DNA from: a virus
IMG/VR virus record: IMGVR_UViG_3300038701_003038
Location: 1 to 49,316 of that record
Strand: one strand, 5' to 3'
DNA length: 49,316 nt
Below are positions 9,161-44,261 of this stretch, in pieces (within the stretch, counting starts at the first letter, position 1; each line of letters opens with the position of its first letter). The notes under the pieces were generated by a model. That model searched no databases. It was given only the letters and a program-made list of their open reading frames with translations, and was not told the DNA's origin. Made by a program: the position numbers and the translations under genes.

Positions 9161-9579
9161 TGGATGATCCTCTTGACTTTTTTCATTGCGTTTACGACTT
9201 TCCCGTCACCACGCTCCTTGGCAGCATTGAATTGCTGTCTCTGTGCACGAGAAGGCTTGTCTGTTTTCGGTACGAGAGACTGCAAATCATCGGCATCGCG
9301 TACCATGTAGTTCACAAGTTCTGGTGCACCCAGAATGTTCTTATAGGTTTGAATTCGAACAATTGGGTGATCGCGGAAGACGAAGTACTGTTCATTTCTG
9401 ATGGGCTCTGGATCTTGCACAACTCGTTTGGTGAACTTTTCCATCACAGCCATGGTTAACTGCCCACCATTGAGGAGTTTGCAAATCTGCTCTAGATGGC
9501 CCTCGAGAAGTTCAGAGCCATCGCCACGTGCCCACTCTGCCGCGGTGAACTGTTTAATGATCCGCCAGGAGATTTTCAT
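9157..9579 (-). CDS. Hypothetical protein
   Basis: 140 residues, soluble, basic C-terminus (KVVNAMKKVKRIIH). Its ATG overlaps the upstream stop as ATGA. No family recognised. Confidence 0.6.
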   Translation of the reverse strand: MKISWRIIKQFTAAEWARGDGSELLEGHLEQICKLLNGGQLTMAVMEKFTKRVVQDPEPIRNEQYFVFRDHPIVRIQTYKNILGAPELVNYMVRDADDLQSLVPKTDKPSRAQRQQFNAAKERGDGKVVNAMKKVKRIIH

Positions 9580-10100: not shown

Positions 10101-10542
10101 TTTCTTCCCTTTCCCGAGTAATATTCGCAATAACCGTTCTGTCATTTCCTTGAGCAAGATCTACTCCTATGTTTACTGGATCTGGCCCGTAGGCCATGAG
10201 TGCTTGTTTGTGATGGATGATTATCGAGTCAATGAAAACCCGAAGCTTCCCAACAGTTTGATTAAGGGTTCCACGTGAAACTGAACCCCGTGAATGCGGA
10301 CTAATCAGCGACATATCTGAGGCAATTTTTTCCAGCCCAACCCGTACTTCTTTGTCATCGATGGACACAACACATCGCTCGTAATCCGAGGCGATATTCA
10401 AAAGCTGCTCGTACGTAGCCTCAGCACCGTCATCCGGCGCAAAGGCCGCTAGGGAGCCAATCAGGTTAGTCAGATAAAACAAATCGGGGTGCTGCCCCTT
10501 GGAAAACTCACCCTCCATCGGTGCTTCAATAAGCTCGTTCAT
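10066..10542 (-). CDS. Hypothetical protein
   Basis: 158 residues from the ATG at 10542, overlapping the upstream stop (ATGA); the longer frame to 10605 is inside the nuclease gene. Largely helical and acidic at both ends (ending IVDIEIVDEGD). No family recognised. Being two genes after the initiator, it might assist replication, for example as a helicase loader, but no motif supports that. Confidence 0.55.
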   Translation of the reverse strand: MNELIEAPMEGEFSKGQHPDLFYLTNLIGSLAAFAPDDGAEATYEQLLNIASDYERCVVSIDDKEVRVGLEKIASDMSLISPHSRGSVSRGTLNQTVGKLRVFIDSIIIHHKQALMAYGPDPVNIGVDLAQGNDRTVIANITREREEIVDIEIVDEGD

Positions 10543-12575: not shown

Positions 12576-12628
12576 CAAATTGAATTTCTTCGTTGTTAGC
12601 ATTCAACGAGGAAATAGGGTCATATATT

Positions 12629-16343: not shown

Positions 16344-16519
16344 ACGGATTCCAAAAGAAACAGCTTGAGCGAATCGTCAATCCTAAAAAGCTTCCCAAAA
16401 GAGAACTTACAGATTGGGAAGTTGGGTTTCAGGAATATCTGCGAACACTCGGTGAAGAACACGAGTTCACCCCCGCGGAGAACAAGAAGCTCAATGAAGT
16501 TGCGGGGTTATTCGCATGA
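16334..16519 (+). CDS. Hypothetical small protein upstream of methyltransferase
   Basis: 61 residues, basic and helical, overlapping both neighbours (ATGA at its 3' end). It is coupled to the cytosine methyltransferase gene; no motif recognised. Confidence 0.55.
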   Translation: MAVNGFQKKQLERIVNPKKLPKRELTDWEVGFQEYLRTLGEEHEFTPAENKKLNEVAGLFA

Positions 16520-17970
16520 GTCCCCGAAGAGACTACCAAAACAAACTGGATCTCGGCGATGAACTTTTTATTGATAACTTCGCGGGAGGCGGTGGCGCGT
16601 CCACCGGTGCAGAGTGGGCCCTTGGCCGGCCCGTAGATATCGCGATTAATCATTCGCCACAGGCTTTAGCAGTTCACAAAGCTAATCACCCACACACGGT
16701 ACATCTGTGTGGTGACGTGTGGGAGCAGGATCCAAGGGTTGTTACTAAGGGTAGACCCGTTGGGGGAGCCTGGTTTAGTCCAGACTGCAAACACTTTTCA
16801 AAAGCCAAAGGCGGTCGGCCGGTGGAAAAGAACATTCGTGGTCTCGCATGGGTCGCGGTTCGATACGCCGCTACCGTGCGCCCACGTGTCATCTACCTTG
16901 AAAATGTAGAGGAATTTCTCACCTGGGGGCCACTAGACGACAGGAATCTTCCCTGCAAAAAGCGTAAGGGGCAGACATTCTTGAAGTGGAAGCAAGAGCT
17001 AGAAAAACTTGGCTACGAGGTTCAATGGCGAATCCTGAGGGCTTGTGACTATGGCGCGCCCACATCGCGAAAGCGTCTCTTTGTAATCGCCCGGTGTGAT
17101 GGATCGCCTATCGTTTGGCCTGAACCAACCCATGGCCCGGGACTAACTCCTTTTCGAACTGCTGCGGACTGCATTGATTGGTCGATTCCATGCCCTTCTA
17201 TTTTTGAGCGGAAACGGCCTCTTGCCGAAAAGACGTTAGAAAGGATCGCTAAAGGCATTCAAAAGTTCGTCATCGACGACCCGGACCCTTTCATTGCCAA
17301 AAACTCAGCACCAATCATTACCAGGCTGGGGCAAACCAAATGGTCTGAGAATCCAGCAAAACGTGTTGACGAGCCGATCACGACGGTGGTTAGCAAGCAA
17401 GAGCACCTGGTTGCCGCGCCACACTTAATCTCGGTTCCCAGCATTATCAAGCATTTCGGCGGAGTAACAGGCGTTCGCGCGGACAAATCTTACCCCACAA
17501 TCACGGCTCGTGGCACACAGAATCAACTGCTGATTTCCCACTTGCTGACTCTACGCAACAACATGTACGGACAAGATCTTAGAGAACCTATTCCAACAAT
17601 TTCTGCAGGTGGACACCACCATGCTGAAGTTCGATCACTGCTTATCAAGTATTACGGGGCTCGATCTGGGCAATACCAGCGGCCAGACGAACCGATACAC
17701 ACGATCCCTACAAAGACGCGGTACGCATTGGTTACTGTCCACGGCATTGACTACATCATTGTAGATATTGGTATGCGAATGCTCACACCACGCGAGTTAT
17801 TCAGAGCACAGGGCTTCCCTGAGTCTTACATCATCGATCCTGACTTCGAAGGAAAGCCACTAATCAAAACGGCCCAGACCATGTGTTGCGGCAACAGTGT
17901 GCCTCCACACTTGAGTCACGCACTGGTCAAGGCAAATTCAACTCAGAACTCAATCAGTAAGGTTGCATAG
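16516..17970 (+). CDS. DNA C5-cytosine methyltransferase
   Basis: 484 residues. Motif I is FAGGGGAS (residue 22), the catalytic Cys is C91 in SPDCKHFS, motif VI is ENV (129-131), motif VIII is around DYGAPTSRKRLFVIARC, and motifs IX-X are LTPRELFRAQGFP and CGNSVPPHLSHAL. SPDC in place of the usual PPCQ is typical of a phage subgroup. It methylates cytosine C5 in DNA using SAM. There is no adjacent restriction gene, so it probably masks host restriction sites. The target-recognition domain (about 230-400) is long. Confidence 0.92.
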   Translation: MSPRRDYQNKLDLGDELFIDNFAGGGGASTGAEWALGRPVDIAINHSPQALAVHKANHPHTVHLCGDVWEQDPRVVTKGRPVGGAWFSPDCKHFSKAKGGRPVEKNIRGLAWVAVRYAATVRPRVIYLENVEEFLTWGPLDDRNLPCKKRKGQTFLKWKQELEKLGYEVQWRILRACDYGAPTSRKRLFVIARCDGSPIVWPEPTHGPGLTPFRTAADCIDWSIPCPSIFERKRPLAEKTLERIAKGIQKFVIDDPDPFIAKNSAPIITRLGQTKWSENPAKRVDEPITTVVSKQEHLVAAPHLISVPSIIKHFGGVTGVRADKSYPTITARGTQNQLLISHLLTLRNNMYGQDLREPIPTISAGGHHHAEVRSLLIKYYGARSGQYQRPDEPIHTIPTKTRYALVTVHGIDYIIVDIGMRMLTPRELFRAQGFPESYIIDPDFEGKPLIKTAQTMCCGNSVPPHLSHALVKANSTQNSISKVA

Positions 17971-17974
17971 CAGA

Positions 17975-18247
17975 ATGAATCCAAAAGAGGGAGAGAACGG
18001 CTGGGAAGCATTCGACCAGGAAAGCGGTTTGTGGCGTCCCTGCGAAATAGTTGGAAAGGCTGATGATGACAACGATGAATGGGTCGTTAGCTATCTAGAT
18101 GCTGATGAAATTTCTCTGGAATTCTCAAACCGCAATCGAATGCGCAAGAAATGCAAAGGCAACCAAGCATCAGGCAGCACATTTCACCGGGCAACTAGAT
18201 TCAAAGCGCCAGTGATTATTCCAACACCAAAAGGAGGTAGTTCATGA
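17975..18247 (+). CDS. Hypothetical acidic small protein
   Basis: 90 residues from the ATG at 17975; a TTG four codons earlier is less likely. The N-terminal domain (GWEAFDQESGLWRPCEIVGK) looks like a small SH3/Tudor-like beta barrel and the C-terminus is basic. Coupled to the ATPase gene by overlap. Confidence 0.55.
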   Translation: MNPKEGENGWEAFDQESGLWRPCEIVGKADDDNDEWVVSYLDADEISLEFSNRNRMRKKCKGNQASGSTFHRATRFKAPVIIPTPKGGSS

Positions 18248-19938
18248 AAGAAATGAACATCCAGATCTCCGAAGAAATAGTTCTGCCTGCCGATGCCGTT
18301 ACGCAGACCTGGGGGATTGTAGGTAGACGTGGCTCGGGTAAAACCTACGGCGCCACCAAACTTTATGAGCTTTTCTATGAAACAGGTGTTCAGTGTGTTG
18401 CACTGGATCCCGTAGGCCTCTGGTACGGCCTTCGCCTGGACAAAGATGGCAAGAATCCAAGCGGCATTGACGTCCCAATCTTTGGTGGCTCCCATGGCGA
18501 CGTGCCACTAACAGACAAATCAGGTGCACTGATTGCAGACTTCATAGTTGAGAGTGGTACGTCTTGCATCATCGACGTATCCGAGTTTCGAAAGGCAAAA
18601 CGTAAGGTCTTTGTAGCCGATCTTGCAGAACAGCTGTTTCATGCTCACAAATCCGTTCGTAGGCCTATCCACCTGTTTATCGATGAAGCGCAGATATTCA
18701 TCCCACAACGCCCGGGTGAAGGTGAACAACGAATGCTTGGCGCGATGGAAGACATTGTGCGCCTAGGACGTAACTTTGGTATGGGCGCATCGCTAATCAC
18801 GCAACGGCCCCAATCAGTCAACAAAGAAGTGTTGAACCAGGTAGAGCCGTTGGTGGTTTTCCAACTCGCCGCTAAGCATGAACGTCGAGCGATCGAGGAA
18901 TGGATTGTCCACGCCGGTGCCGATATCAAACCAGAAATGATGAATCTATCTGCGCTCAAGAATGGCGACGGCTACTTTTGGTCTCCAGCATGGGTTGATC
19001 GTTTTGAGAGTATTCGATTCCTGGCGAAAAGAAGCTTCGACTCAACTGCAACACCGAAGTTAGGACAGACTCTGCAGTCACCAACCAAGTTAAAGCCGGT
19101 GGATATTGGCGTACTCAACGAAAAGATCTCGGCTCTTGTGCAAGAGGCCGAATCAAACGATCCCACGCTACTCAAGAAAACCATTCTGGATCTCGAATGG
19201 AAACTCCAGCACCAACAGGACGGATTATTCACTGAAGAAGAGGTCCGCGGTCGAATTTCAGCAGCACTTGAAGCACACCGACCTGAACCCAGCGTTGATA
19301 TAGAGGCATTAAAGTCAAAGCTTTCCGCGTGTCTTGACATTCTATCGGAAGAAATACCAAAACCTATCGCGACACCCATACCAGCGATCAGCGGAATAAA
19401 GCCGACAAACAATGAGGTCCCAAAAAATCTCATCAAACTATCGGGTAAAGAACTAACAGGTCCGCAAACGAGAATAGTCGATAGTTTGGCTTGGTGGCTT
19501 GCCACGCCGGTCAAAGGACCTTACACACGGGCTCAGGTGGCTTTCATTGCACAGTACAGTCCCAAAGGCAGTGCGTTCACAAATCCTCTTGGACAACTGC
19601 GCACTATGGGAATCGTTGAATTCCCTGCGCCAGGTATGGTCGATCTAGTGCCTAACTACAGACTAATTAGTGAGGTATTTAAACCAACCCAACAAGAACT
19701 GCACGAGGCGATCCTAAACAAACTATCAGGTCCACAACGGAAAATTCTTAAGCCCCTCCTGGCGGCTTACCCAAGAGAGATGAGCCGTTCGGAGCTGGCT
19801 ACCGCGTCTGAATATAGCGAAAAAGGCAGCGCTTTCACCAACCCTCTTGGGTCATTGCGCTCTTTAGGATTGGTTCAATTCCCGCAGCAGGGCTATGCCG
19901 TAGCGTCTCCCGACTTATTCTTTGGTGAAGATTCATGA
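18244..19938 (+). CDS. HerA/FtsK-like ATPase with tandem winged helices
   Basis: 564 residues. Walker A GRRGSGKT lies near residue 27, Walker B HLFIDEAQIF near 140, and a sensor region (GASLITQRPQSV) near 180: the core of the HerA/DUF87 clan of DNA-pumping ATPases. A coiled linker follows. The C-terminus holds two related repeats of about 65 residues, each containing LSG(K)...GPQ and (K/E)GSAFTNPLG(Q/S)LR, which look like winged helices binding DNA. HerA proteins form hexamers that move along DNA, often with a nuclease partner. Downstream are a winged-helix protein and a DHH phosphoesterase. Confidence 0.8.
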   Translation: MKEMNIQISEEIVLPADAVTQTWGIVGRRGSGKTYGATKLYELFYETGVQCVALDPVGLWYGLRLDKDGKNPSGIDVPIFGGSHGDVPLTDKSGALIADFIVESGTSCIIDVSEFRKAKRKVFVADLAEQLFHAHKSVRRPIHLFIDEAQIFIPQRPGEGEQRMLGAMEDIVRLGRNFGMGASLITQRPQSVNKEVLNQVEPLVVFQLAAKHERRAIEEWIVHAGADIKPEMMNLSALKNGDGYFWSPAWVDRFESIRFLAKRSFDSTATPKLGQTLQSPTKLKPVDIGVLNEKISALVQEAESNDPTLLKKTILDLEWKLQHQQDGLFTEEEVRGRISAALEAHRPEPSVDIEALKSKLSACLDILSEEIPKPIATPIPAISGIKPTNNEVPKNLIKLSGKELTGPQTRIVDSLAWWLATPVKGPYTRAQVAFIAQYSPKGSAFTNPLGQLRTMGIVEFPAPGMVDLVPNYRLISEVFKPTQQELHEAILNKLSGPQRKILKPLLAAYPREMSRSELATASEYSEKGSAFTNPLGSLRSLGLVQFPQQGYAVASPDLFFGEDS

Positions 19939-25516: not shown

Positions 25517-26230
25517 CTACCCTCTTTCACACAACCTGGTTAATGTCTCCGCAAATTGTTTTGGTTTCTCAAACATCGGGCTATGCCCACAGCAGTCAAT
25601 AACTCCTGTATCAACGTTGTAAGCACCAAGGATGCGTTCAACCGACTGCAAAGGTGTTATCACATCATTCTTGCCCCAGATCGCCTTGATCGGGCATTCC
25701 AAATCACCTAGCAATTTATGTGCTACGACCAATTGATTACTCTCATTCATCAATCGCAGTATCTGAATCATATTGCTTTCAAACGTTGAAATCAGACGAT
25801 CCAGAAATGGACTATCAATTTTGCGTTGATCGAACAATATCAACGACGCGAGTTTGGTAGCACTTCCAGCCGGATCTCTTCGAGAAAACTTAAAACCAAG
25901 GTGATCCAGCTTAACCTCACTGAAACCCGCAGATCCTGAGATAACCACACACTTGACTCGATCTTTTAGTTCCTTCGCTACAAACAATGCAATCAAGCTA
26001 CCAAGGGAGTTGCCAACTAGTGTGACCGGTTTATCGAATTCATTTATCTTATTACAAAATATTCTAACAAGACCACTTATGTCACTATTAAGTTCGCATA
26101 GCGACTCCCTGAACACAAATTGATCAGAGTTACAGGTATGCTTTAGCGCCAAACTCCACATCCAACCTCCGGCAAACATACCTGGCAGATATACATAGGT
26201 TTCTTCGTTCTGATATTTTTTTAGGTGCAC
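25517..26230 (-). CDS. Alpha/beta hydrolase
   Basis: 237 residues from a GTG at 26230 with GGAG 8 bases upstream; the frame is open to 26479, but the extra 83 codons look non-coding and contain palindromic sites. The fold starts with YVYLPGMFAGGW (oxyanion loop), the nucleophile is S75 in GNSLGS, and the acid and base are D189 (GKNDVITP) and H216 (CGHSP). The triad is complete. The family includes BioH-, MenH- and lactonase-like enzymes acting on small esters or lactones; the substrate is unknown. No signal peptide is seen, so it should act in the cytoplasm. It is first in an operon with the membrane HTH protein. Confidence 0.8.
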   Translation of the reverse strand: MHLKKYQNEETYVYLPGMFAGGWMWSLALKHTCNSDQFVFRESLCELNSDISGLVRIFCNKINEFDKPVTLVGNSLGSLIALFVAKELKDRVKCVVISGSAGFSEVKLDHLGFKFSRRDPAGSATKLASLILFDQRKIDSPFLDRLISTFESNMIQILRLMNESNQLVVAHKLLGDLECPIKAIWGKNDVITPLQSVERILGAYNVDTGVIDCCGHSPMFEKPKQFAETLTRLCERG

Positions 26231-26496
26231 AATTATTACTCCATTTTGTCTAAAAAACGTACGATTCGGATTAATCCGAACGATTCGAGGAAACTTTCCC
26301 CTCCCAATGTAGTAAGTGCGGACTAGTCCGTGAGCTCTCGCTTTAAAACCCAGACGGTTCGAAACTATCCTCAAAAGGTGCGGAAAAAATGAACGCTTTA
26401 CTCTTCTTTGCCGGTTTGAGATCAATACATGCCATGCCAACGAAACTAATATGTGGCTATGTGGTGGTTTTATAACCAAGAAGAAATATTTATAGA
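26231..26496. promoter_or_regulatory. Divergent control region with twin palindromes
   Basis: TTCGGATTAATCCGAA (26265-26280) and CGGACTAGTCCG (26319-26330) share the consensus CGGAYTARTCCG. Their centres are 52 bases apart, close to five helical turns, and 43 and 95 bases upstream of the hydrolase start. The 26497 gene is transcribed away from the same region. A dimeric regulator binding both sites on one DNA face is likely. Confidence 0.65.
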
Positions 26497-26763
26497 GTGA
26501 GTGCTAGCGTGAAAGAAAGGAATCGTTACAGCTGGAAGTTAATTGGGGTGGATAACTACGACCCAGCAATCATAGTCAAATCAAATGGCCGGCTTTTCAG
26601 AGTAAAAATTGATCAGCTGAGCCAGCTAAAAAAACTCAGCCCAGACGAGAGAGTTCAGGCCGCCAACGCGCTCGGTTACGTTAGAGGAATGAAAGCTGGC
26701 TCGCGTAAGTTTCAACGTTTCACTGCTTTATCGAAGATTAAGAGCACACGTACGGGAAGCTAG
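26497..26763 (+). CDS. Small basic protein, divergent from hydrolase
   Basis: 88 residues from a GTG at 26497 (a GTG at 26509 is the alternative). Basic, mixed alpha/beta, no recognised family (VKSNGRLFRVKIDQLSQLKK). It shares the palindrome-bearing control region with the hydrolase operon. Its stop overlaps that of the giant late gene by 2 bases tail to tail, so no terminator separates the two. Confidence 0.55.
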   Translation: MSASVKERNRYSWKLIGVDNYDPAIIVKSNGRLFRVKIDQLSQLKKLSPDERVQAANALGYVRGMKAGSRKFQRFTALSKIKSTRTGS

Positions 26764-29700
26764 TTAGCAAAATCGACATCCTCAAGGATTGAACCCTGCA
26801 GTTTTTTGTTCAACTGAATGCCATCTTTTGCGCTTTGTCTGTATGTCTGCCGCCGTCTGATACTTTTACGAATCGTTTCTCCTTCTATGGGGTAGCCCGG
26901 GTTAGCCTGATTGAACTTCACGATCTGTTCCATCACCGCGTAACTATCATCCTCATCTTGGCGACGCCAGGCGGAATAGTACTTGGCCAACAATTCACTG
27001 CGCCGTTTTACAATCCGTTGTTCACGTGCTTTGCGCTTTGAGTTCTCAGCGTATCGGTTAGCCAGTCTCGATGGGGTCCAGCCAAACGCCTGGCCAGCTA
27101 TTTCTATAGCGCTGAACTCTTCAACTAATAGATCACCGGAGCGATTCTCGGCGCCATTGTTTGCCAATCGCCAGGCTTTCATGGGATTACCTACAGAACT
27201 TGGAAAGGCTACCTCCAACGAGCGAAGCATTTTTTCCTCATCACCCCATTCAAAAGTGTCGTATGCACGACCATAGTTCATGAGCACTCCAAACCCAGCA
27301 CCAAGCCATTGCTCTACGTAGTACATTAGCGCTTCTTTGCCTTCTAGTGCACGGTCACTGCCCCTCATCCATAAATTATCCAAGGCTATACGAGATGAGA
27401 CCGAAGCACCTAGCAAGGCGTCTACAGGCCCTCTCGCAATCGCCAAGCTGAGAGTTCGCGCGCTTTCGGATCCAACTAATGGTTCGAAGAAATCAACGAT
27501 GCCTGTCCGCCACCAGGTTTCAAAGTCATAGGGATCATCCTCATCGTCGAACGCAAGATTTACCAACGCTGAAATTGAACTGACCAAAGGCAGAGCCAGT
27601 ATGCCGCCAGCCATGATATGCATGGATAAAATACCAGTGAGTGCCTTCCGAGATTCGGCTCTTTCTGCCTTGTTCTCGTTGTTGAAGGTCTTATTAAATT
27701 CACTGATCAATAAGTAGGATGTATTAATCGAGTACTGCTTAAAAATGAACAGCACTTTTGCCACATCACCGCGCATGACGCGCGCGCGGTTACCACTCGA
27801 ATAGTCATAATGCGTTTTCCAAACCATATCCCTTGCATTCGACAACGCCTTGTTGATATCTCCAGATTTCTTTTTTTCAAGACGATACGCCGCTAGCGCT
27901 GTTACTTCGCGATTCCAAACCTCGGCTTTGTGGAACAAGTAAGCTGCCTTTTCCATCGCTGAACGGAAAAGGGGACTATATTCTGCTCCTTCTTCTGCAA
28001 CTCCGGCCAACATGTGTGCGTTAGTTCGGTCAATGACCCCCCAGTCCAACCAACTGTCATATGCGCTTAGTTCATCATCTTTCAATACGTTTCGAATTGA
28101 ACCCATGCCTCGCATCAAGTCATTTGACGCAGCCAACAACTCCTTTCCTGAATCGGTATAACCATATTTAGCACCCATGACTGGGTACGCGATCAATGGT
28201 GTCTGTGTCACGTTTACTATCGCTGAAGAAACATTGAAACCAAGAAAGTTGAGAAATGTGAATGACGTGATCGAGTTAGCCAGGCTTCCACCCTTTGGGT
28301 TCATTTGCCATTCGTATGATTTCTTTATTTCCCCTAGCAAATCCCATGACTTGTTCTTGTCCTTACCAATCCGCATTGCACTCAGCCGCCTCTCGATCAG
28401 TTTGGCATACGCATCCTCGTAAAACTTCAGGTCGTCACGCGCCTTAAGTGCCAGACCAATGATGTCTTGTAGCTGCTTTAAAGAAGGGTCGTTATCTGAA
28501 ACTCGAAGCTGATCACTGACCTGACTGTACTGACCTCTCAGATCTGAGTGTTTTACCATTTTAAGCGCTTCATTCAGCTCATATATCTCATTTTCAAGAG
28601 CATCAATGTTTCCAGAATCGAATAGCGCCTGCTGGATCTCATTAATTTTGGTATCCATCAATCCTGAGTACTTCAATCTGGAGATCTGCCGGGCTCCATG
28701 CAGCATTTGAGTTGCAAAGGCACGCATAGCGTCGTTCGAATAACCCTTTGTCTTCTTTCGATGTTTCGCCTGCTTACGAATGCTGAGTGACGGGAGTGAA
28801 TCAAGATACAACTGATAGATGCCGTCTTTGAGGAAGTTCATTCGATCGGAATCGCCCCCCTTCTCTACAAGGTCGATCACCTCAGACATGAAGCTTGCCG
28901 GAACTTTTTCTTCGAAATTGAAATCATCTAGCGTGCGGCCATGATCAACATCGTATCCGGATTGCTCCATTTGCTTTCTAAAATTGCGTTGTTCGTCTAA
29001 TTTCTCGAACATGTCGAAAGACACATCGGTGCCTTTCCTCGCATAGACCCAATAATCGCCGAATCGAGCGAGCGGAAAGTAAGGGCCCTGTAACTTCAAG
29101 AACTCGAACTGTTGTCGAAGTTGCGCAATTCGGGCGGCTCGGGTCTTACGCTCACCAATCAATGCATTAACATTTTCCTCAACTATTTGGAAAAGCGTAT
29201 CCCAGCGTTTGATGTACTGATCACGCACCGACTCAAAAAGACCCTGGCCGTCAGAGCTTAACGCCTCGTAGCGCTTTCTCAGACCTGGATATGATGCTGC
29301 TCGGCTGACCTCCGAATCCATCATGCGCTGAATTTCCGATATCTCATCCATGTACGCCTTAACCCTTGATCCCTCAGCGTTCACAGTCTTAATCTGTTGT
29401 CTGATGATGCGGATTTTTTTCTCACCATCCTCTCTTGTCATCAGCACTTGATAATCCTGAGAAGGATCAACTCCCGCTATCGTCGAGTCATGCATGAGGC
29501 GACTCAGTTCTTCACGTTCATTTGGGTGTTTGTTGTTGTATCCACGCCAGTCGCCATCCAAATCGCCAGGTTCCAACATCAGTTCGTTGGTGTACGCATC
29601 CATTTGTTGGGCTAAATTCACGTACTCTTTCAGTTGCGGCAATTCATTTCGGCCAATGTCAGCCAAATCATTACGCCCAACCGCTGCTAACCAATATCTT

Positions 29701-32700
29701 CTTAGTGATGCCATACCGCGATAGAACCGACTTGCTTCAGGGTCATCGTCCACAACTGACTCATTTTCTACAATCTTAGAGTGGTCTCTCCGTGATGCCC
29801 TTGACGCTGGGTAAGTGGCCGGCACCTTTCTGGAACCATGGCCGTGCACGGTGCTTTTTCGTGACTTCATCAGCATGTATCGGATATCAGAAACACTGAA
29901 AGGGATATCAAACCCAATCGACTTGAGAAATTTCCGCATGGAGTTGACGAGATTTGTCCACAGATCCTTAAGGACTCTCGGACCCTTATTCGACAAAGAT
30001 TCACTCTCAGCCATACGAGCAATGATTTCGGCTGCCCGGGTGGCTGGATCCACTTCGCCATGACTTTCCCTGACCGAAGCAGCCAATTTCAGAATCTCAG
30101 GATCACCGCTGCGGTAAAGCCAATCAACCTGATCAAGAAAATCAACATAGTCCTCACCTAGATAGAGCTCAGGGCCTCGATGCCCATACGTCTCGTGTAC
30201 TGCCTCTCTGATGGCCTGGGCCGTGGAACTGATATTTTCACGGTTTAAGAAAACAGTATCTGTCGTGATGTCATAGTAGGCAGAAAGACCCTGGGCCCCA
30301 ACAGGCGCCTCACCGATCTCCTCAAGTACATGCTGGGGAAGATCCGATTCACGATCAATAACCACATAACTGGCACGATTGTTTGATTGATTGAGCACCA
30401 ATGGTGCAATTGCCCTTTCGATCTGTTGAACCGTTAATGATGCATTACCTTGTCGTTTACGGTTTGCTCGAGCAGTACTAGCGGGTTTGTCGATCGTTAC
30501 CAGAACTGTACTAACACCAGTCGATCTGTCTGAGTTGATAAAGCTACCATCGGGCAATGTTTCAATGGTGCCGCCAAGACTTTCAACCCAATCGACAAAT
30601 TCACGATTGTTCTTGAGAGTGTTATTCACGCCAGCAGACATTACTGATACCAGCCGACCCTCAGGCTTTACCAGGTTGAAGGCGTGACGAACGTGGGCAA
30701 CTTGATCCTCAAAAGGTGGGTTCATTAAAACACGATCATACTGGCCCTCGTGCTGGAAGATGTCATTGCCGACAACGTTGTGTCCTTTAAGCTCTAAAAT
30801 CTCACGTAAGGTATGAACCCACTCAATTGCTGTCACCTTAGTATCTGGATACTCTTCAACAATGGCATCCACAATGCTTCCTTTACCAGCTGAAGGTTCA
30901 AGAATCGTATGACCAGTTTCAATATTCGCTTCTTCAAATATGCGATCAATCACCGGTCGTGGTGTTGGGAAGTAGCCATCAAATTTCAAACCAATCAGCT
31001 CACGCTCCTTTGACTTGATTGGGTCTTCGGCTGCTGGGGTTTCACGCACGGTTTCAAGCTCCCTAAGAGCAGCGCGGAGCTCATTCAGGTTGGTGATTCC
31101 CATGTTAGCCAATCGATTTATCTTTGCCGCCTTCTCTGAAATAGAGAGAGCAGTTGTACCGTAGATACCCGGGCGCTTCGCATAGGTTTTGACCTTGTCG
31201 ACGATCTTCGACCAGGAAACACCTAGCACAATATTTGCGTCTGAGTTCTTGCCTTTGATGCGTGAGCGAATGCCGCTGGCTGCTTGCTTGTAACCACTGA
31301 CGTCTTGAAGATCGCGGGCTAGTGACTCAAGGCCATCCACTCGCACAACAATCTTCAGGGCATCGTCGCGCAGAAATTGAAGCTTCTGGTTCAATGTGAC
31401 ATCTGGCTTCCAAGACCTTCTGCTGTTCCCATCTTTCGTTGTGAACTCATCGAGCTGCGCATTCGGAATCGAATACTTAAGTTGGCGCCGGATTGCTTCA
31501 AGATTTTCAAGCTGTACCTTTGAGGTGAGGTTAGCCAGGTATCTAATCGATCCGTCTTCAATCCCTACCGCAATGTTTCTGAGGGTTCGCGCAAATGCGA
31601 TGTTTGACTCAGCATCTGCTACAGCCGAAGCGGCCTGAGACGCCTGGCGAACCGTATTTGTTCGCCGATCCTGATCACGCTTTTCGATTGCTCGTGATTC
31701 AATCTTGTCGGCCATTTCCAACAAATTAGATAGTTTCGAGTTGCCTTTTTTCTCCGAGGCACCAGGAATTTCAACCTCTTTGCCGGAGTAGCTATCGACA
31801 AAGCTCTGTGCCATTTCCTCACTTGGAAACCAATAGTTACCGCGCCAATAGCCACCACCCATCTTGCGCGCTCGCGACATAAGCTTTTTCCAGTCTTCTT
31901 TATCCACCTTCTCGGTGGTTCTGACGTTGAATAAGTCCTCGCCGGTCTTAGAGTGCTTACCAGGCTCGATCGTGAAGCTGATACCTTCGCCTAACTCAAC
32001 CTGAGTTCGAGTGACAACATCTTGTTGCTTTTGATCCTGCACGCGCTTGCGCGTTTCTATGCCGCGTTCGGCTTTGAACTGATCCCACTTTTCAAGTTGC
32101 TCTGGCGACAGCTCACCTTCACCCTTTGTATCAACGAAGTACTGAAGCTCGTCAAACGTTTCAGGGTTTTCGCTGGCCTTTTCTACAAATTCTTGGCGTT
32201 CCGCCCGTGCCTTTTCTGCCTGTTCCAAAGACTCTTTGTTCTCGGCTATGTCTTTCTCGGTGATTGAGAAAACAGCCTTCTTGATACCTTCAAGGCGCTC
32301 GGCTTCAATCTTTTCGCGGTTTCTTAGTTGGCCGAATGAAATGGTTTGAGACGGTACAGGTTTGTTCAGCAAATGACCGTAGAGCATCGCGTCATAAGCA
32401 GCATCCACGAAGCGATCCTTTTTATCATTTTTCGACAATGACCAACCTAAACGAAACCTGCTGAATATCTCCGCTTTCGTTTCCTTCGCAATGCGCTTCT
32501 TAACCTCTGCTTGATTCTCCAGCAACCTGGTGAACGACTGCTGCAGCACGTCTGGCGTCAAGGAACCATCGCGTGCCGCGGTCATCAGCTGGTTGTAATC
32601 TGAAACAGAAAACGGGCCTGCTGTTATCTTTCCAGTGTCTTCTGCAGTAGGGGGCTGTTGGTTTGTCTTCGGGCTTTCATTGGGTTCAGAGGTTTTTGTT

Positions 32701-35700
32701 GACCTTTTCTTGTTTTGTTCTGTGTGTGCTTCATTTTCCTCAATAGCCGGCTGTTCGATCGACTTCGCGTATGACTCAATATTCTGTTGGCCAACAATGA
32801 CCGGCCATGATTCACCGTCATGTGTAAGATCGATTGCTATAAACTGACCGTTGGCCCCCTCAAAGACATCCATTGTGTCTTCTGGCACAGCCTTGAGATC
32901 TGAGAATACAAATCCAGCGTCGAGAATTTCCTTGTGGGGATAACGTTTGGATTCGAAGACGAACTGACCATCGACCGAATTGCTTTGGAACGCCCGATCA
33001 AGAAAAACTCCGTAGTCGTTGGTTGGTATTGTTGCACCGGTTTCATACTCTCTTTCACGCGCACGCCTATCCAGTTCCGACTGTAAGCGGTTAGCGCTTT
33101 CCCGCGCAGTATCTCTGGCTTCGCGGATTCTTTCAATATCACGGTTAAAACCTCCAGCACCAGCACCTTTGGTTCGTCCCTTTGTCACACGCTCGGTATA
33201 GCGTACATTCTGCTTCTCAATCTCAGCCTCATGCCTGGCCAAGCGCTTGCGTAAGCGTGGTTCATCCACAGACCTAAGGTTCTCGTCCGCTACAAGATCG
33301 ATTAATGAGCCTTCATTAAAGCGCTCTAACTTCTTCACCATCAGCAAATTGCTGTAGCGATTTTCCATTTTTACATCGGCTTCAAACGCATCAGCGACCA
33401 CATCCCGCGCAGTATCCAATTTTCTTTGATAGGTTTTATCGAGAGCAAGTTGTATCGGCTCCTTCTTTGGGTCCGGAGTGCTGTCTTTGGAGATTTGAGT
33501 TGGCTGTTTTTGCTCAGGTCTAACGTTAATGAAGTTGCTGATAGTATTTCTGAGTTCACGCGCCATAAACTCACCATCCAGGTCGTCGCTATGACGTGCC
33601 ACTTCTTCCGCAATGGCAGCATCGACGGTTTCCTCGGGATTCATCCCAAGCCTTTCCATTTCTGAACTCACGAAGAGTAGACGGGCAACGCTAGCTTCCT
33701 GATTAGATGAATAGCTGCTCGGATCGGTACTTTCAGGTAACTCCAGCATTGCGCGCCTAAGCTCTGTCGTGGCATCGCGCGCATCTTCTACTGGCTCAAT
33801 AACTTTTCTTAACCGCCTGAAGGATTCAGCATCAGTGGGCAAATCAGAATAAAACATAAAGTTATTTTCAGATTCCGACAGTTCACTTTCGTCTAGCTCG
33901 TCAAATTTCTTCTTCCCAGTTCGAGCCAGTATGTCTTTCTCAATTTGACGAGCTTCTGCCTCTGCGGCTTGCAGCTCCGCAAATGTACCTTCCGGTGATT
34001 CTGTGGCTCTCTGTGCCAGATCAACTGGAGACGAAACTTTCTGAGCAGTTTCGTAAAAGCGTTCTATCCGAGAACGATTATCTGGCTCTGGCTCTACAGG
34101 AGTGTTTGCCAGCTCAGTATTTACTTCAACGACTGACTCAACTTCTTCGGTTGTTTCGGCACCAAGCTGTTGTGCTGGTTTAGAAGTCTGTTCCGGGTCG
34201 TAGACCCATTCACGGAACGTAGCCATGTCCATTTCCGTCGTAGAATCCAAGCCTTGCCAACCATCTTCATAGTTGTTGAGATATGCCTGTTCAGCTTCTC
34301 GCTGGGAGTCATAGCCAAACATGACCTTGTGCTCATCGAACTCGCCATCAATCACCTGGTTGACAACAAAAACTGACTCACTACTAGGGTTAGGCCCAAT
34401 GAAAACATCCACGTGCTCAATATCTGTCTTAACGTCACTGCCCGGATCATCCGCACCACGCGTTTTTCTGATATAGCCGTAATCGTTTGCCATTTCGACT
34501 GACCATTCATTGCCATCCCGATCTTCGCCACGGCGGGTAGAACCTTTCGGGTTTTCGATGGTGATATCAAAGCCGTTAAGTTTGATGTGCCCTTTCTTAT
34601 AGTTTCCGGCTTCTTGTTGTTTCGCGGTGGGTTCCGGCAAGTCATTCAGCGGCGATGTGGCAGCCTCTGCACCGGCCTCGTCTATTTCAACGCGAGCAGT
34701 GCTCTGAATCTCGCGAGTAAAATCATCCGGTTCTAGTTCGAACTCTGTGTCGGACCCTTCGGCCTCCTCAGTGCTATCAGCCAGTTCCTGGTAGCTCGAC
34801 ATTTCCTCTGGATCAAAAGTTATTTCAGTCTGGGGAGCCATAGTGGATGCAGGCTGGGCCAATTCGTCATAACTTGGCTGTAAAATGGGCTTTTGTTCAG
34901 CCTGTACCAAATTCTCTTCTACCAGAGGTTCAGGCATTACCCAGGCCACAACACCAGCCGCTTCGTGTTTCTTTATTGCTCCCTCAAAGGGCGGCTTACT
35001 CGGATCCGATACGTTCACAAACAACCCGGGTGCAATCTCCTCAACAACTGGCAACTCTGGCTCTTGCGCTGGATCCGCCTCGTCAACAATGTCAAACTCG
35101 CCTTCGATATCAACTTCGCGCGGCGCACCTGATGCGGCCGCGATAGCACCACCTACCACACCACCACCGATAGCACCCAAAACCGCGCGATCTGGAACGC
35201 CATCCAGTAGATCCCGGTTCGGATCTAAATCATGATCAATGATTGACTGATTGATATTCATTCCCTGGGAGCCTTCTTCAATCACTTCGGGAACTGCATC
35301 GATCGCTGCACCTTTCGCGGCACGAGCCGCGATTTTGCCCGGTACTTGAGAAGCACCACCAAGACCTATTGCCCCCATGGCAAAGGCGATCGGCAATTGG
35401 CGTTCTGTTGCCTCACGAGCTACTACATTGGCAACAACATTCTTTTCCTCTGTCGTAAGATCCAGTTCAATCGAATCAAGCAGTTTTCGAGCTTCCTGCG
35501 TACCCTCGGAGAATGAATCAGCCCCGCCAATTGCAGCATTGGTTGTGCCATAGCCAGTAAATGCCGCTGCCTTTGAAGGCATGACTCGAGCAAAGAGATT
35601 GGTTAGACCACCGCCGCCAACCAGGAAGGTAGGCAGCATTGGAACAACGGAGAATACAGTGTCAGTGACTTGCGACGAATTAGGCAGCCGCCATTCACCA

Positions 35701-36158
35701 GTGTCCGGGTCGAAAATTTTGTTTGTCTGAATCGCCTCTTTGACTGATTCTGGCTGAAGTACTTCATCGCCGGCCTCAATCCCTTTCTCAAAAAACTCGC
35801 TTGCAGCATGAGTCGCACGTCCAGCTGCGCTGTTAGGGTAGTCATCTGAAACCATGCCACCAACCATGTTCGCGATATCAGGCACAAGCTTCGGTACCAT
35901 CTGCGCGCCTTTAATCAATGAAGCACCTGCGCCCTGGGCGAGCTCTAGCGCAGTTGGTCCGCTCGGCGCTTCTGCAGTGGGTGGCTCAGGAGAATTGCGC
36001 AATCGCTCGTAAAATAAGCTCCTAGTCTCTTCTAGGTTTTCTTCCGGGATATTCGGCGCGAGCGCTCGATTGAAGTACTCATCTTGAACCGCGTATTGCT
36101 GCTCTTCTGTCAGTGCCTGATAGTCTTCGTTTTCCTGAATCGCGCTCCATGGTTTCAC
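26760..36158 (-). CDS. Giant polyvalent virion protein (3132 residues)
   Basis: GTG start at 36158, overlapping the upstream stop. The N-terminal 350 residues have Gly/Ala-rich hydrophobic stretches (TFLVGGGGLTNLFARV, GAIGGGVVGGAIAAASG) like injection proteins. About 515-655 is a pyrophosphatase-like PolyVal domain (GDFDI-type core, HVDVFIGPNP). About 1720-1880 is an adenine-type methyltransferase (LEPSAGKGSI near 1752, NPPF at 1812). About 1900-2090 is a metallopeptidase-like PolyVal domain with HETYGH (1988-1993). About 2625-2900 matches LPD38, with membrane-like helices. Long charged coiled segments join these. As the last late gene, it is in the place of T7 gp16-like ejected proteins and probably enters the cell with the DNA. 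Confidence 0.88.
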   Translation of the reverse strand: MKPWSAIQENEDYQALTEEQQYAVQDEYFNRALAPNIPEENLEETRSLFYERLRNSPEPPTAEAPSGPTALELAQGAGASLIKGAQMVPKLVPDIANMVGGMVSDDYPNSAAGRATHAASEFFEKGIEAGDEVLQPESVKEAIQTNKIFDPDTGEWRLPNSSQVTDTVFSVVPMLPTFLVGGGGLTNLFARVMPSKAAAFTGYGTTNAAIGGADSFSEGTQEARKLLDSIELDLTTEEKNVVANVVAREATERQLPIAFAMGAIGLGGASQVPGKIAARAAKGAAIDAVPEVIEEGSQGMNINQSIIDHDLDPNRDLLDGVPDRAVLGAIGGGVVGGAIAAASGAPREVDIEGEFDIVDEADPAQEPELPVVEEIAPGLFVNVSDPSKPPFEGAIKKHEAAGVVAWVMPEPLVEENLVQAEQKPILQPSYDELAQPASTMAPQTEITFDPEEMSSYQELADSTEEAEGSDTEFELEPDDFTREIQSTARVEIDEAGAEAATSPLNDLPEPTAKQQEAGNYKKGHIKLNGFDITIENPKGSTRRGEDRDGNEWSVEMANDYGYIRKTRGADDPGSDVKTDIEHVDVFIGPNPSSESVFVVNQVIDGEFDEHKVMFGYDSQREAEQAYLNNYEDGWQGLDSTTEMDMATFREWVYDPEQTSKPAQQLGAETTEEVESVVEVNTELANTPVEPEPDNRSRIERFYETAQKVSSPVDLAQRATESPEGTFAELQAAEAEARQIEKDILARTGKKKFDELDESELSESENNFMFYSDLPTDAESFRRLRKVIEPVEDARDATTELRRAMLELPESTDPSSYSSNQEASVARLLFVSSEMERLGMNPEETVDAAIAEEVARHSDDLDGEFMARELRNTISNFINVRPEQKQPTQISKDSTPDPKKEPIQLALDKTYQRKLDTARDVVADAFEADVKMENRYSNLLMVKKLERFNEGSLIDLVADENLRSVDEPRLRKRLARHEAEIEKQNVRYTERVTKGRTKGAGAGGFNRDIERIREARDTARESANRLQSELDRRAREREYETGATIPTNDYGVFLDRAFQSNSVDGQFVFESKRYPHKEILDAGFVFSDLKAVPEDTMDVFEGANGQFIAIDLTHDGESWPVIVGQQNIESYAKSIEQPAIEENEAHTEQNKKRSTKTSEPNESPKTNQQPPTAEDTGKITAGPFSVSDYNQLMTAARDGSLTPDVLQQSFTRLLENQAEVKKRIAKETKAEIFSRFRLGWSLSKNDKKDRFVDAAYDAMLYGHLLNKPVPSQTISFGQLRNREKIEAERLEGIKKAVFSITEKDIAENKESLEQAEKARAERQEFVEKASENPETFDELQYFVDTKGEGELSPEQLEKWDQFKAERGIETRKRVQDQKQQDVVTRTQVELGEGISFTIEPGKHSKTGEDLFNVRTTEKVDKEDWKKLMSRARKMGGGYWRGNYWFPSEEMAQSFVDSYSGKEVEIPGASEKKGNSKLSNLLEMADKIESRAIEKRDQDRRTNTVRQASQAASAVADAESNIAFARTLRNIAVGIEDGSIRYLANLTSKVQLENLEAIRRQLKYSIPNAQLDEFTTKDGNSRRSWKPDVTLNQKLQFLRDDALKIVVRVDGLESLARDLQDVSGYKQAASGIRSRIKGKNSDANIVLGVSWSKIVDKVKTYAKRPGIYGTTALSISEKAAKINRLANMGITNLNELRAALRELETVRETPAAEDPIKSKERELIGLKFDGYFPTPRPVIDRIFEEANIETGHTILEPSAGKGSIVDAIVEEYPDTKVTAIEWVHTLREILELKGHNVVGNDIFQHEGQYDRVLMNPPFEDQVAHVRHAFNLVKPEGRLVSVMSAGVNNTLKNNREFVDWVESLGGTIETLPDGSFINSDRSTGVSTVLVTIDKPASTARANRKRQGNASLTVQQIERAIAPLVLNQSNNRASYVVIDRESDLPQHVLEEIGEAPVGAQGLSAYYDITTDTVFLNRENISSTAQAIREAVHETYGHRGPELYLGEDYVDFLDQVDWLYRSGDPEILKLAASVRESHGEVDPATRAAEIIARMAESESLSNKGPRVLKDLWTNLVNSMRKFLKSIGFDIPFSVSDIRYMLMKSRKSTVHGHGSRKVPATYPASRASRRDHSKIVENESVVDDDPEASRFYRGMASLRRYWLAAVGRNDLADIGRNELPQLKEYVNLAQQMDAYTNELMLEPGDLDGDWRGYNNKHPNEREELSRLMHDSTIAGVDPSQDYQVLMTREDGEKKIRIIRQQIKTVNAEGSRVKAYMDEISEIQRMMDSEVSRAASYPGLRKRYEALSSDGQGLFESVRDQYIKRWDTLFQIVEENVNALIGERKTRAARIAQLRQQFEFLKLQGPYFPLARFGDYWVYARKGTDVSFDMFEKLDEQRNFRKQMEQSGYDVDHGRTLDDFNFEEKVPASFMSEVIDLVEKGGDSDRMNFLKDGIYQLYLDSLPSLSIRKQAKHRKKTKGYSNDAMRAFATQMLHGARQISRLKYSGLMDTKINEIQQALFDSGNIDALENEIYELNEALKMVKHSDLRGQYSQVSDQLRVSDNDPSLKQLQDIIGLALKARDDLKFYEDAYAKLIERRLSAMRIGKDKNKSWDLLGEIKKSYEWQMNPKGGSLANSITSFTFLNFLGFNVSSAIVNVTQTPLIAYPVMGAKYGYTDSGKELLAASNDLMRGMGSIRNVLKDDELSAYDSWLDWGVIDRTNAHMLAGVAEEGAEYSPLFRSAMEKAAYLFHKAEVWNREVTALAAYRLEKKKSGDINKALSNARDMVWKTHYDYSSGNRARVMRGDVAKVLFIFKQYSINTSYLLISEFNKTFNNENKAERAESRKALTGILSMHIMAGGILALPLVSSISALVNLAFDDEDDPYDFETWWRTGIVDFFEPLVGSESARTLSLAIARGPVDALLGASVSSRIALDNLWMRGSDRALEGKEALMYYVEQWLGAGFGVLMNYGRAYDTFEWGDEEKMLRSLEVAFPSSVGNPMKAWRLANNGAENRSGDLLVEEFSAIEIAGQAFGWTPSRLANRYAENSKRKAREQRIVKRRSELLAKYYSAWRRQDEDDSYAVMEQIVKFNQANPGYPIEGETIRKSIRRRQTYRQSAKDGIQLNKKLQGSILEDVDFAN

Positions 36159-37318
36159 TAGTTTTTGACTCCCATGCCGTCGAGGAAGCCAGCAGCGTTA
36201 AATGCACCATTGGATCCAGTGCTTGATGCTGCGCCGTTACCGGCACTATCTTCTGAATTGATTCCCGCCAATGTTTCGGCTTCTTTTTGTAGGTCTTCGA
36301 AAGACTTCGGTTGATAAGGTTCACCAGTCCTAAGTTGATTCATCAATGCCTCTTCACGCTTCTGAAGTTCTTTGAACCAGAAACGCACCGTTTCTTGCTC
36401 GCTGCGGCCTTTGTCGTTCTTTCGAATCGTTGCATCAATAGCATCGTCCTCAGTCCAACCTCGTTTGACTAATTCAGCCACAACCTTAAATTCTCGTGGT
36501 AGCTGGTCACGATCGATCGTCGCCTTATGATCGGCAGTTTTTCTTTGTTCATCGCCTCGCGCAGAAATTTGAGTCATCTGATTTAGATGCTTTTGTCGTT
36601 GTTTAAGCATTTCCTCAACAAATGCATTCCGCTGAGAGTCATAAGCACTGGGATCGCCCCCAGCTGCACGGATCCGCGCTCGTAGCACCGATTTCATCTG
36701 ATCTACGGTGGCCTCCTCACCGTTTGCCATCAGGCTGGCTTCTAGTGAACGAGTTAAGTTCAGTATGTCGCGTTCATTAAATGTCACCAGGTTATCGCCG
36801 CTAACACTCCGCTCCATGTCCATTGGAGCTTTGTAAGAAGTACCATCTTCTCTCTCAATCTCGAGCTCAAGACCAAATTGCTCCATTCCGTTTTCATCTA
36901 GCACGGGGGTGTTGTCTTTAGGATTTAGTAGAGGAAAGACATTACTAACTCTTTTCGACTTTCCACCTTCGCCCCTATTAATCACGTCGTGATTTACAAC
37001 GTTAAAGCTCTCTAGCAAGCTCTGCGGGTCGGATGGTTGCAACCCGGCCAATTGTTCAAGCATCGCACCATATAGGTTTACTTGGTGAGCCTTAACCTCA
37101 TCATTACGCCCGCGACGAATTTGGTCTTGTTTGAATAGCATCTCTAATTCGTTTCTACGGTGATTTTGCTCATCAATCCGATTTTGGCGCTCTCTCTGAT
37201 AGGCCAGGTTGTCCGCCCGCTGTTGCTTGTATTGCTTTCGGTCTTCACGGCCTTCTAAGAATCCCATCACACCGGTAGCCGTACGAATTCCTTCATTAAT
37301 TCCTTCTAAAACACCCAT
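36158..37318 (-). CDS. Internal virion (injection) protein candidate
   Basis: 386 residues, highly charged and helical, with a Gly-containing amphipathic N-terminus (VLEGINEGIRTATGVMGFLE) and a Gly/Ser/Ala tail. Location between other internal-protein candidates and the giant protein suggests a structural or ejected component. No catalytic motif. Confidence 0.6.
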   Translation of the reverse strand: MGVLEGINEGIRTATGVMGFLEGREDRKQYKQQRADNLAYQRERQNRIDEQNHRRNELEMLFKQDQIRRGRNDEVKAHQVNLYGAMLEQLAGLQPSDPQSLLESFNVVNHDVINRGEGGKSKRVSNVFPLLNPKDNTPVLDENGMEQFGLELEIEREDGTSYKAPMDMERSVSGDNLVTFNERDILNLTRSLEASLMANGEEATVDQMKSVLRARIRAAGGDPSAYDSQRNAFVEEMLKQRQKHLNQMTQISARGDEQRKTADHKATIDRDQLPREFKVVAELVKRGWTEDDAIDATIRKNDKGRSEQETVRFWFKELQKREEALMNQLRTGEPYQPKSFEDLQKEAETLAGINSEDSAGNGAASSTGSNGAFNAAGFLDGMGVKN

Positions 37319-37328
37319 ATGAGTCTCC

Positions 37329-38186
37329 CTATGCTCGAGCTTCCAATGCCTGAAGTCGCTGGTCTATGTTTTGGATCGCACCGGTTTGGTGGCCCGCCTG
37401 ATTAATCAAATCAACCACTTTTCCATTTGAAACTTCTGGCGGGAGTTCCTCTGCAATACCGCCTACGAAACGACCTTCCGGCCCCATCCCTTCCTTGTAC
37501 TCCCAACCTTTGTTATCGATGCTGCGAATTACATCCATACTCTTAGCTGTATCGACTGGCTTAATGTTCTTCTTGGCCTTCTCCGTTGAGAGTAACAACG
37601 CCGTGGTGGCAAGCTGAGCAATGCTGCTATTTCGCTGCTGCGTCGCAGCCGCCTGGTTTTGCTCGTTTCTGATGCTTCTTTGATTAGCGGCCGCATCCAA
37701 CTGGTTAATTGAATCAGTTGCCGAGGTAGCAATGTCTCGACCTAAACCAATGACTCCGGCACGAAGCTTCTCCTGTCGATTGGTCGTGTCATCAACCGCC
37801 TTAGCTGCGGCATGAATGGCGCCATTCGATTTTTGTGTTTCCATGTACCGCTTGCGAGCCTCTTGCTGCTCTGGAGTGAGCGACGCACCATATGTATGCA
37901 ATGCAAAGTCCGCGTTGCTTTCTGCACGGTCGAAGCTCTTGTCATTAATTTCTCGTGCCAGTTTGGCCGATTCTTCAATTGCGTTCGGGTCTGTGGCTCG
38001 CGTCAGCAAATCGCGCTCTATCGGAGCAAATGTTTGCTGCCAGTAATCATACAGTTGCCTCGATAATTGAGCGGAACGGCCCTCGATGTTCGCGCTGTTG
38101 TAAGACTGACCTGGATGGTTGTACCCACGCACATCAGTACCGGCTGTGTCATCATTTAGTTCTGGTTGAAAGGCTTCAAACAGCAT
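37329..38186 (-). CDS. Internal virion protein with S74-like C-terminus
   Basis: 285 residues. Residues 1-190 are Ala/Gln-rich helices typical of podovirus internal proteins. The last 85 (LSTEKAKKNIKPVDTAKSMD, then GRFVGGIAEELP, then a terminal LQALEARA coil) follow the pattern of the intramolecular chaperone domain of endosialidases (peptidase S74), including a candidate Ser-Lys pair. In tail spikes that domain trimerises the protein and cuts itself off. Its presence on a non-fibre protein is unusual. Overlaps its upstream neighbour by one base. Confidence 0.65.
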   Translation of the reverse strand: MLFEAFQPELNDDTAGTDVRGYNHPGQSYNSANIEGRSAQLSRQLYDYWQQTFAPIERDLLTRATDPNAIEESAKLAREINDKSFDRAESNADFALHTYGASLTPEQQEARKRYMETQKSNGAIHAAAKAVDDTTNRQEKLRAGVIGLGRDIATSATDSINQLDAAANQRSIRNEQNQAAATQQRNSSIAQLATTALLLSTEKAKKNIKPVDTAKSMDVIRSIDNKGWEYKEGMGPEGRFVGGIAEELPPEVSNGKVVDLINQAGHQTGAIQNIDQRLQALEARA

Positions 38187-43604: not shown

Positions 43605-44261
43605 CTAACCGCTGTAGAGCTCCGACAATTCTTCTGGTGTCGGGAAGTGCATCCCGGCGACGCCAATGATTCGACCCCATGAGCCATTTAAACGCCTTGC
43701 CCATTTGACGAAGGTCATATCCACCACACTGCCATCACAAAGCTCAACGGGTTCTGTTCGAACCTGGGTTTGCCCTGTACGTAGAACCTCCTGGTCATTC
43801 TCTGTGTAGACGTTAGCAATAGCATCAGGCCAGACCGCATAGTCCGTCTTGTAGTCTTCCCGGGCATAACCGCGGCAATCTAAGAAAATATCCACATACT
43901 TATCATTAACGTGCAGGACGTTGCCGAAAGGGTCTTTCACCCAATGTGCGAAAGGCGATGAGTTACTTGAGCTTTCCAATGCGAGCAATGCATTCCGCAG
44001 CGCTGTGACTTCTTTGCGTAGGGAGTCCATCTCAAGTGACATTTGCTCAATCTTTTCAGCGTATTTCTCGTTTTGGGTAAGCACCATTTGCTGAAATGCC
44101 AGGACTAACTGAGGATCTTGTTCAGCCGGTCTTGGTTTTTGGGATTCGATCCAGTTGCTACCTAACCAACCCGCGATAATCATCGCTATTGAAAGCAGTA
44201 TGACTAATGCCAGGGTAGGAATTTTGCTGATAAGGACTTTGCCGAGGTCAACGATTACCAT
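43605..44261 (-). CDS. Membrane-anchored PAS-domain protein
   Basis: 218 residues. One transmembrane helix (about 15-35: LALVILLSIAMIIAGWLGS), a coiled coil (about 50-95), then a domain that reads as a PAS fold: WVKDPFGNVLHVNDKYVDIF, EDYKTDYAVWPDAIA, DQEVLRTGQTQVRTEPVEL, FVKWARR and GIAGMHF-like end. PAS domains sense ligands, redox state or light; here there is no kinase or other output domain. It sits between fibre and tail genes of the late operon and overlaps the fibre stop, so it is made late. It might sense the envelope before lysis or be a modified spanin-like protein (inference). Confidence 0.7.
   Translation of the reverse strand: MVIVDLGKVLISKIPTLALVILLSIAMIIAGWLGSNWIESQKPRPAEQDPQLVLAFQQMVLTQNEKYAEKIEQMSLEMDSLRKEVTALRNALLALESSSNSSPFAHWVKDPFGNVLHVNDKYVDIFLDCRGYAREDYKTDYAVWPDAIANVYTENDQEVLRTGQTQVRTEPVELCDGSVVDMTFVKWARRLNGSWGRIIGVAGMHFPTPEELSELYSG

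Follow-up and report, generated by a model that had tools for sequence, protein, structure and literature searches.

The giant protein described here is predicted to be a late, virion-packaged and ejected polyvalent protein of 'chassis plus cargo' design, a reading for which we estimate a probability of roughly 0.78. It is encoded in the window, that is the whole stretch of DNA that was analysed, a virus record of 49,316 bp. The cysteine-free signature that it shares with known injected virion proteins suggests that a multi-enzyme package is delivered into the host along with the DNA. Injection is proposed because the absence of cysteine coincides with the presence of an N-terminal domain of the N4 virion RNA polymerase (vRNAP) and of gp69 from Lessievirus JC1 and with homology to an internal virion protein of phage CRP-4. 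For polyvalent proteins in general, injection has mostly been assumed rather than shown.

The original prediction had placed a protein of 3132 residues at 26760-36158 without naming a strand. Translation of the window bears these coordinates out exactly for the minus strand, where the ORF runs from 36158 to 26760 free of internal stops; the plus-strand reading of the same interval is stop-ridden and was rejected. The gene and the two preceding it are:

26760..36158, minus strand: giant polyvalent protein gene, 3132 aa, GTG start, 0 cysteines
36158..37318, minus strand: upstream partner, 386 aa, 0 cysteines
37329..38186, minus strand: homologue of a virion structural protein, 285 aa, PHROG 8003, 0 cysteines

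In the sequence TAGTG, the stop codon of the upstream gene (TAG) and the GTG of the giant gene overlap, and GGGAG is located about 10 bases 5' of this GTG, so that the two genes are probably translationally coupled. Matches to the N-terminal 69 residues of the upstream partner occur in 25 ORFs of relatives, and 19 of these lie directly before a giant; a scan of bacterial genomes found no relative of this partner. The genes preceding the giant encode virion and tail proteins, and its operon as a whole contains virion structural, internal virion and tail fibre PHROGs, which is the late, packaging-related setting typical of polyvalent proteins and agrees with the earlier designation as a late protein. 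Another protein of the late operon (43605-44261, minus strand) gave a borderline PAS-fold match (E 1e-4). The gene immediately downstream of the giant encodes an alpha/beta-hydrolase-like protein (25517-26479, minus strand; esterase/lipase PHROG 789, with several weak matches to hydrolases in NCBIfam), a position that often holds lysis genes in relatives.

The phage is temperate, and the window carries a repressor-like gene at 12593, an integrase at 22402 and a replication protein at 10942. As capsid, portal and clear large-terminase genes were not recognised among the window proteins scanned, the record is probably incomplete; a HerA/FtsK-like ATPase with weak terminase similarity is encoded at 18244-19938 on the plus strand. 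Two DNA methyltransferase genes of the PHROG 67 and 116 families (7135-7890, minus strand, and 16516-17970, plus strand) bring the number of methyltransferases in the phage to three when that of the giant is included. A cysteine-dioxygenase-like protein (9576-10157, minus strand; PHROG 4786, E 2.2e-30) is possibly the product of an auxiliary metabolic gene. DNA-level relatives of the window were absent from phage and plasmid records, and single-sequence patterns taken from the C-terminal and middle thirds of the giant returned no close relatives, so alignments are needed to find them.

PHROGs group the giant with DarB-like antirestriction and DNA-methyltransferase giants. Its sequence assigns it to the polyvalent proteins, a known class described by Iyer et al. 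(2017; PMC5512222) and marked by at least two biochemically unrelated enzyme domains in one polypeptide. The giant has an InPase, an adenine methyltransferase and an HExxxH peptidase-like domain, and three enzyme-like domains in a single protein are what had been foreseen. The following segments can be delineated:

35112..35360, minus strand: N-terminal EG-Q/glycine-rich domain, residues 267-349, ~85 residues, no Pfam model
34203..34622, minus strand: InPase domain, residues 513-652, PF18823, E=1.7e-50, 170.9 bits
31014..32681, minus strand: undescribed ~550-aa module, residues 1160-1715, mostly helical, basic, preceding the methyltransferase
30468..30977, minus strand: predicted gamma-class adenine DNA methyltransferase domain, residues 1728-1897, with FPT 1730-1732, EPSAGKG and NPPF 1813-1816
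29829..30386, minus strand: putative zincin-like metallopeptidase domain, residues 1925-2110, HExxxH (H1988, E1989, H1993) plus E2044
29076..29711, minus strand: LPD39, residues 2150-2361, PF18858, E=9.3e-36, 123.8 bits (cutoff 27)
26796..28409, minus strand: PLxRFG 'tail-700' C-terminal helical module, residues 2584-3121, NF032893, E=7.6e-194, 646 bits (cutoff 100)

At least four further viral ORFs have the full architecture, which thus represents a lineage rather than a one-off. Two further segments had been proposed to be globular but unassigned: that at 1385-1455 corresponds to a small conserved alpha/beta unit at about 1395-1457 inside the ~550-aa module, whereas nothing comparable emerged for 1045-1130, since the profile of region 670-1160 matched just one other ORF among the relatives. 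A SpoVR-like match at 1437-1509 (E 0.52, Pfam search) was taken as noise. In three relatives (L034, L039 and L046) the giant is naturally split into at least two ORFs between the peptidase/enzyme part and LPD39. A single chain is therefore not obligatory, and splits at this position would be expected if the enzyme and C-terminal halves can work apart. Two of these relatives, L034 and L039, contain extra genes between the pieces.

The C-terminus had been taken for an LPD38-like membrane region, and neither half of this description held up, although the original reading was otherwise largely right. PF18857 (LPD38) is unmatched in the giant and in all nine members of the C-terminal alignment, and the LPD38-bearing C-terminus of JC1 gp69 could not be aligned with that of the giant (hhalign probability 1.1). 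By sequence, the giant ends in LPD39/PLxRFG, with a PLARFG motif (2362-2367) right after LPD39, and LPD38 is an alternative C-terminal module that occurs in 8 of 15 giants possessing the shared N-terminal domain but lacking LPD39. A membrane region is not a general property of this C-terminus either: the C-terminal half of the giant has one segment above 1.6 on the Kyte-Doolittle scale (2848-2866), about half of the relatives have one there, and it is absent in 25 of 53. In 71 of 72 relatives no more than 60 residues separate the module from the end of the ORF, and the cargo in front of it varies (among others ADP-ribosyltransferase (ART), MuF_C, PBECR nucleases, cell-wall hydrolase and SNF2). 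AlphaFold predicts it confidently as all-helical (pLDDT 86.5, pTM 0.83). The model has no significant fold neighbour in the PDB (best E 0.72) and matches viral models including gp39 of Roseobacter phage CRP-4 (E 4.7e-6), a homology on which sequence profiles agree (iE 4.8e-13, hhalign 91%). This protein from the Zobellviridae is named internal virion protein D in UniProt.

At the opposite end, a profile of residues 1-400 converged on the 85-residue domain, which has a motif of about EG-x-x-E-E-x-x-Q and a glycine-rich end. No Pfam family was found at residues 267-349. The domain profile matches JC1 gp69 at 501-580 (E 1.2e-18), the giant itself (5.6e-12) and N4 vRNAP at 378-447 (2.2e-7). The N-terminal profile matched giants exclusively (ORFs of the N4, P1 and JC1 stretches, CRP-4 and the window), the best reversed decoy being at 0.53. 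An independent scan with the domain alone yielded 56 nonredundant ORFs with a cysteine content of 0.022%; 25 of the 26 complete ones comprise at least 1935 residues. On the basis of these profile matches, the domain is common to N4 vRNAP and JC1 gp69, both virion proteins. This small domain may guide packaging or passage across the membrane, and it would be of use in engineering protein delivery by phages.

None of the 3132 residues of the giant is cysteine, compared with 98 of 10,814 in the other window proteins. The other late proteins of the window contain 12 cysteines in 4326 residues, and at this rate 8.7 would be expected in the giant. In view of their low content (0.28%), the lack of cysteine might be put down to chance, as a by-product of the make-up of phage structural proteins or of base composition, an explanation that we find scarcely credible. 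Across 70 nonredundant LPD39 giants, cysteine accounts for 42 of 251,384 residues and 45 of the proteins have none, whereas tryptophan, whose codon likewise starts with TG, is normal at 1.09%; the ORFs flanking these giants have 1018 cysteines in 112,170 residues. Furthermore, the same domains carry cysteine in other contexts. InPase domains have 0 of 4821 in LPD39 giants versus 16 of 2148 in short InPase ORFs, for instance portal fusions (Fisher P 6e-9; P values for these counts ignore shared ancestry, the counts not being phylogenetically independent), and SNF2 helicases 0 of 20,805 versus 46 of 10,915 in other types of giant. For methyltransferases the corresponding figures are 0 of 9292 and 20 of 11,888.

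Among known virion proteins, the ejected N4 vRNAP (0 of 3500) and JC1 gp69 (0 of 4515) are equally free of cysteine. The lack of cysteine in N4-like vRNAPs has been explained by injection through tail and periplasm (PMC2784036, PMC3715699, PMC3915230). The virion-packaged DarB protein of P1, a contractile-tailed phage, contains 9 cysteines in 2255 residues, and cysteine freedom is thus not universal for packaged proteins. Judged from sequence counts, the domain-matched depletion extends the published N4-vRNAP signature 'cysteine-free = ejected'; a literature search of incomplete coverage found no paper that had extended it to polyvalent proteins. Purging of cysteine after the move of a domain into a giant would provide a delivery marker that needs nothing but sequence and is applicable to all phage genomes.

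The same observations bear on the idea that the protein acts late in the producer cell, where it could mark progeny DNA, assist capsid maturation or mediate superinfection exclusion, and is never delivered to the next host. The position of the gene, which follows immediately on virion genes within the late operon, would suit such a role, as would the two further DNA methyltransferases of the same phage. However, it leaves unexplained why cysteine was removed from the enzyme domains and why a domain is held in common with the injected N4 vRNAP. In addition, JC1 gp69, which occupies the same genomic slot, was found by mass spectrometry to be abundant in virions (PMC9144972). We therefore regard action confined to the producer cell as very unlikely and favour delivery with the DNA.

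Turning to the cargo, the methyltransferase domain matches PHROG methyltransferase families, and its FPT, EPxAGxG (LEP-AG-G) and NPPF motifs are invariant in 26 sequences with at most 32% identity to the query. An AlphaFold model of residues 1160-2110 (pLDDT 83) has HsdM, M.PacII and M.TaqI as PDB neighbours in Foldseek, M.TaqI superimposing at ~3 A over 187 columns. The catalytic motifs are accordingly placed in a fold resembling type I/TaqI adenine methyltransferases, as the original prediction required, and the domain is a TaqI/HsdM-like adenine methyltransferase with predicted activity. Matches to the RNA methyltransferases Erm and KsgA are read as a reflection of the shared Rossmann fold, because NPPF is present and HsdM, PacII and TaqI rank equal or higher; an RNA methyltransferase identity was rejected.

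In published polyvalent proteins, methyltransferases almost invariably have LPD36 and an SNF2 helicase as neighbours (PMC5512222). The giant gave no helicase match in Pfam, its peptidase follows directly after the methyltransferase, and the methyltransferase is preceded by the ~550-aa module with a pI of 8.9. This module was tested for identity with LPD36 and proved unrelated to the region upstream of helicase-type methyltransferases (hhalign prob 0.1), that region being equated with LPD36 by its published description and not by a Pfam model. Out of 116 nonredundant methyltransferase ORFs, a sample partly drawn with the giant as query, 62 have the module, 39 have the helicase, 13 have neither and two combine the helicase with only the ~100-residue central unit of the module, while the flanking parts of the module never occur together with the helicase. 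Two scans not biased towards the giant gave ratios of helicase to module types of 14 to 1 and 27 to 4, again with zero overlap. The helicase-free methyltransferase module is new relative to published polyvalent proteins and prompts the question by what means a methyltransferase carried in the virion locates its sites on incoming DNA when it lacks a translocating motor of the DarB type.

In the peptidase segment, H1988, E1989, H1993 and E2044 are invariant in 26 of 26 sequences, and the AlphaFold model consists of three strands, then the HExxxH helix, then the helix with the glutamate. This is the arrangement given for polyvalent MPTases in PMC5512222 (three-stranded core, HExxxH helix, glutamate on the next helix), where an HEXXXH group is published as well. 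The proposed metallopeptidase-like domain is thereby substantiated, and sequence and model together identify it as a putative zincin-like peptidase. Pfam gave no peptidase match in the giant, and the Foldseek list for the 1160-2110 model was occupied by methyltransferases.

The identity of the InPase as a family I-type domain (PF18823) is unambiguous at the sequence level. In 103 nonredundant InPase domains E535, R542, Y560, D584, D608, E609 and K611 are almost always kept and D570 mostly. A 9-residue insertion in the metal-binding loop of the giant's InPase, found otherwise in just one of ~100 homologues (L003), could impair catalysis. The InPase encoded at 10001-10579 of L003 is 60% identical to that of the window.

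This insertion lends some weight to the view that the giant is a virion structural or ejection-conduit protein whose enzyme-like domains, as may be the case for InPase-like domains joined to portals, are relics or structural adaptors without catalysis in the host. The resemblance of its C-terminus to an internal virion protein points in the same direction, as does the occurrence of InPase domains on portal proteins (gp19 of 9b41_L) and in short InPase ORFs. On the other hand, even highly diverged relatives retain the catalytic residues of the three domains with little or no variation, which argues against relics as these would not keep such residues, and in relatives the cargo is swapped for other enzymes. 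We consider a purely structural role unlikely and prefer a package of functional enzymes.

In the proposed delivery model, a packaging and ejection chassis would consist of the EG-Q/glycine domain at the N-terminus and the helical LPD39-PLxRFG module at the C-terminus. Exchangeable cargo would be carried between the two, here the InPase, the basic ~550-aa module with the TaqI-like adenine methyltransferase, and the HExxxH metallopeptidase. Unfolded at least in part, the chain would exit the head together with the DNA and pass the oxidising periplasm, and we propose that cysteine was purged from the giant for this very reason. Once the chain has refolded in the cytoplasm, its own peptidase would probably sever the enzymes from the C-terminal module. 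Judging by DarB, the methyltransferase would most likely serve to shield the incoming DNA from restriction, and contact with the DNA would be provided by the basic module instead of a translocating helicase. The InPase may remove PPi or a nucleotide defence signal, a proposal derived from its family (PMC5512222).

A wider proposition, to which we give even odds, is that phages with short-tail-type ejection possess a general modular cysteine-free chassis, made up of the undescribed ~85-residue N-terminal EG-Q/glycine domain and either LPD38 or LPD39/PLxRFG at the C-terminus, that carries any enzyme set through tail and periplasm, captured enzymes being purged of cysteine, and that in a helicase-free branch the ~550-aa basic module replaces the SNF2 motor of DarB. 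The helicase-free methyltransferase module, the domain shared with N4 and the domain-matched cysteine depletion are new and turn 'probably injected' into a testable statement.

Compared with known systems, the giant resembles the polyvalent proteins of Iyer et al. (2017) in uniting InPase, adenine methyltransferase, HExxxH MPTase and LPDs in one late protein and differs from them in lacking an SNF2 helicase or LPD36 beside the methyltransferase; neither the cysteine depletion nor the N-terminal domain in common with N4 vRNAP is described in those parts of PMC5512222 that were available. Its C-terminus scores well above the cutoff for NCBIfam NF032893 PLxRFG and Pfam LPD39, family names that carry no function. 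VPAG_00062 of Vibrio phage douglas 12A4, labelled just hypothetical protein in the phage record, and its relatives in L118, L133 and L169 have the same domain order for most of their length at ~30% identity.

The assumption of a DarB-type anti-defence unit stands with regard to the related adenine methyltransferase but not with regard to SNF2 helicase and LPD36, both of which are missing. With the DarB methylase-helicase dyad the giant shares an EcoKI/TaqI-like methyltransferase with TP (FPTP 1730-1733) and NPP[FY] (NPPF 1813-1816), and related methyltransferases are matched by HMM in P1 DarB (90-275) and JC1 gp69 (1589-1784). In DarB and JC1 gp69 (PMC9024508, PMC9144972) an SNF2 helicase follows the methyltransferase, whereas the giant has no SF2/SNF2 helicase C-terminal to this domain, and the place of LPD36 on the N-terminal side in the DarB dyad is taken by the ~550-aa module. 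JC1 gp69 has the N-terminal domain, the peptidase and the freedom from cysteine in common with the giant but ends in LPD38 instead of LPD39/PLxRFG. The N4 virion RNA polymerase gp50 is likewise a giant late protein without cysteine that possesses the N-terminal domain, and its residues 2193-2236 weakly match the giant's peptidase profile; its cargo, however, is an RNA polymerase, whereas Pfam revealed none in the giant, a T7-like RNA polymerase domain being absent at E<=1.
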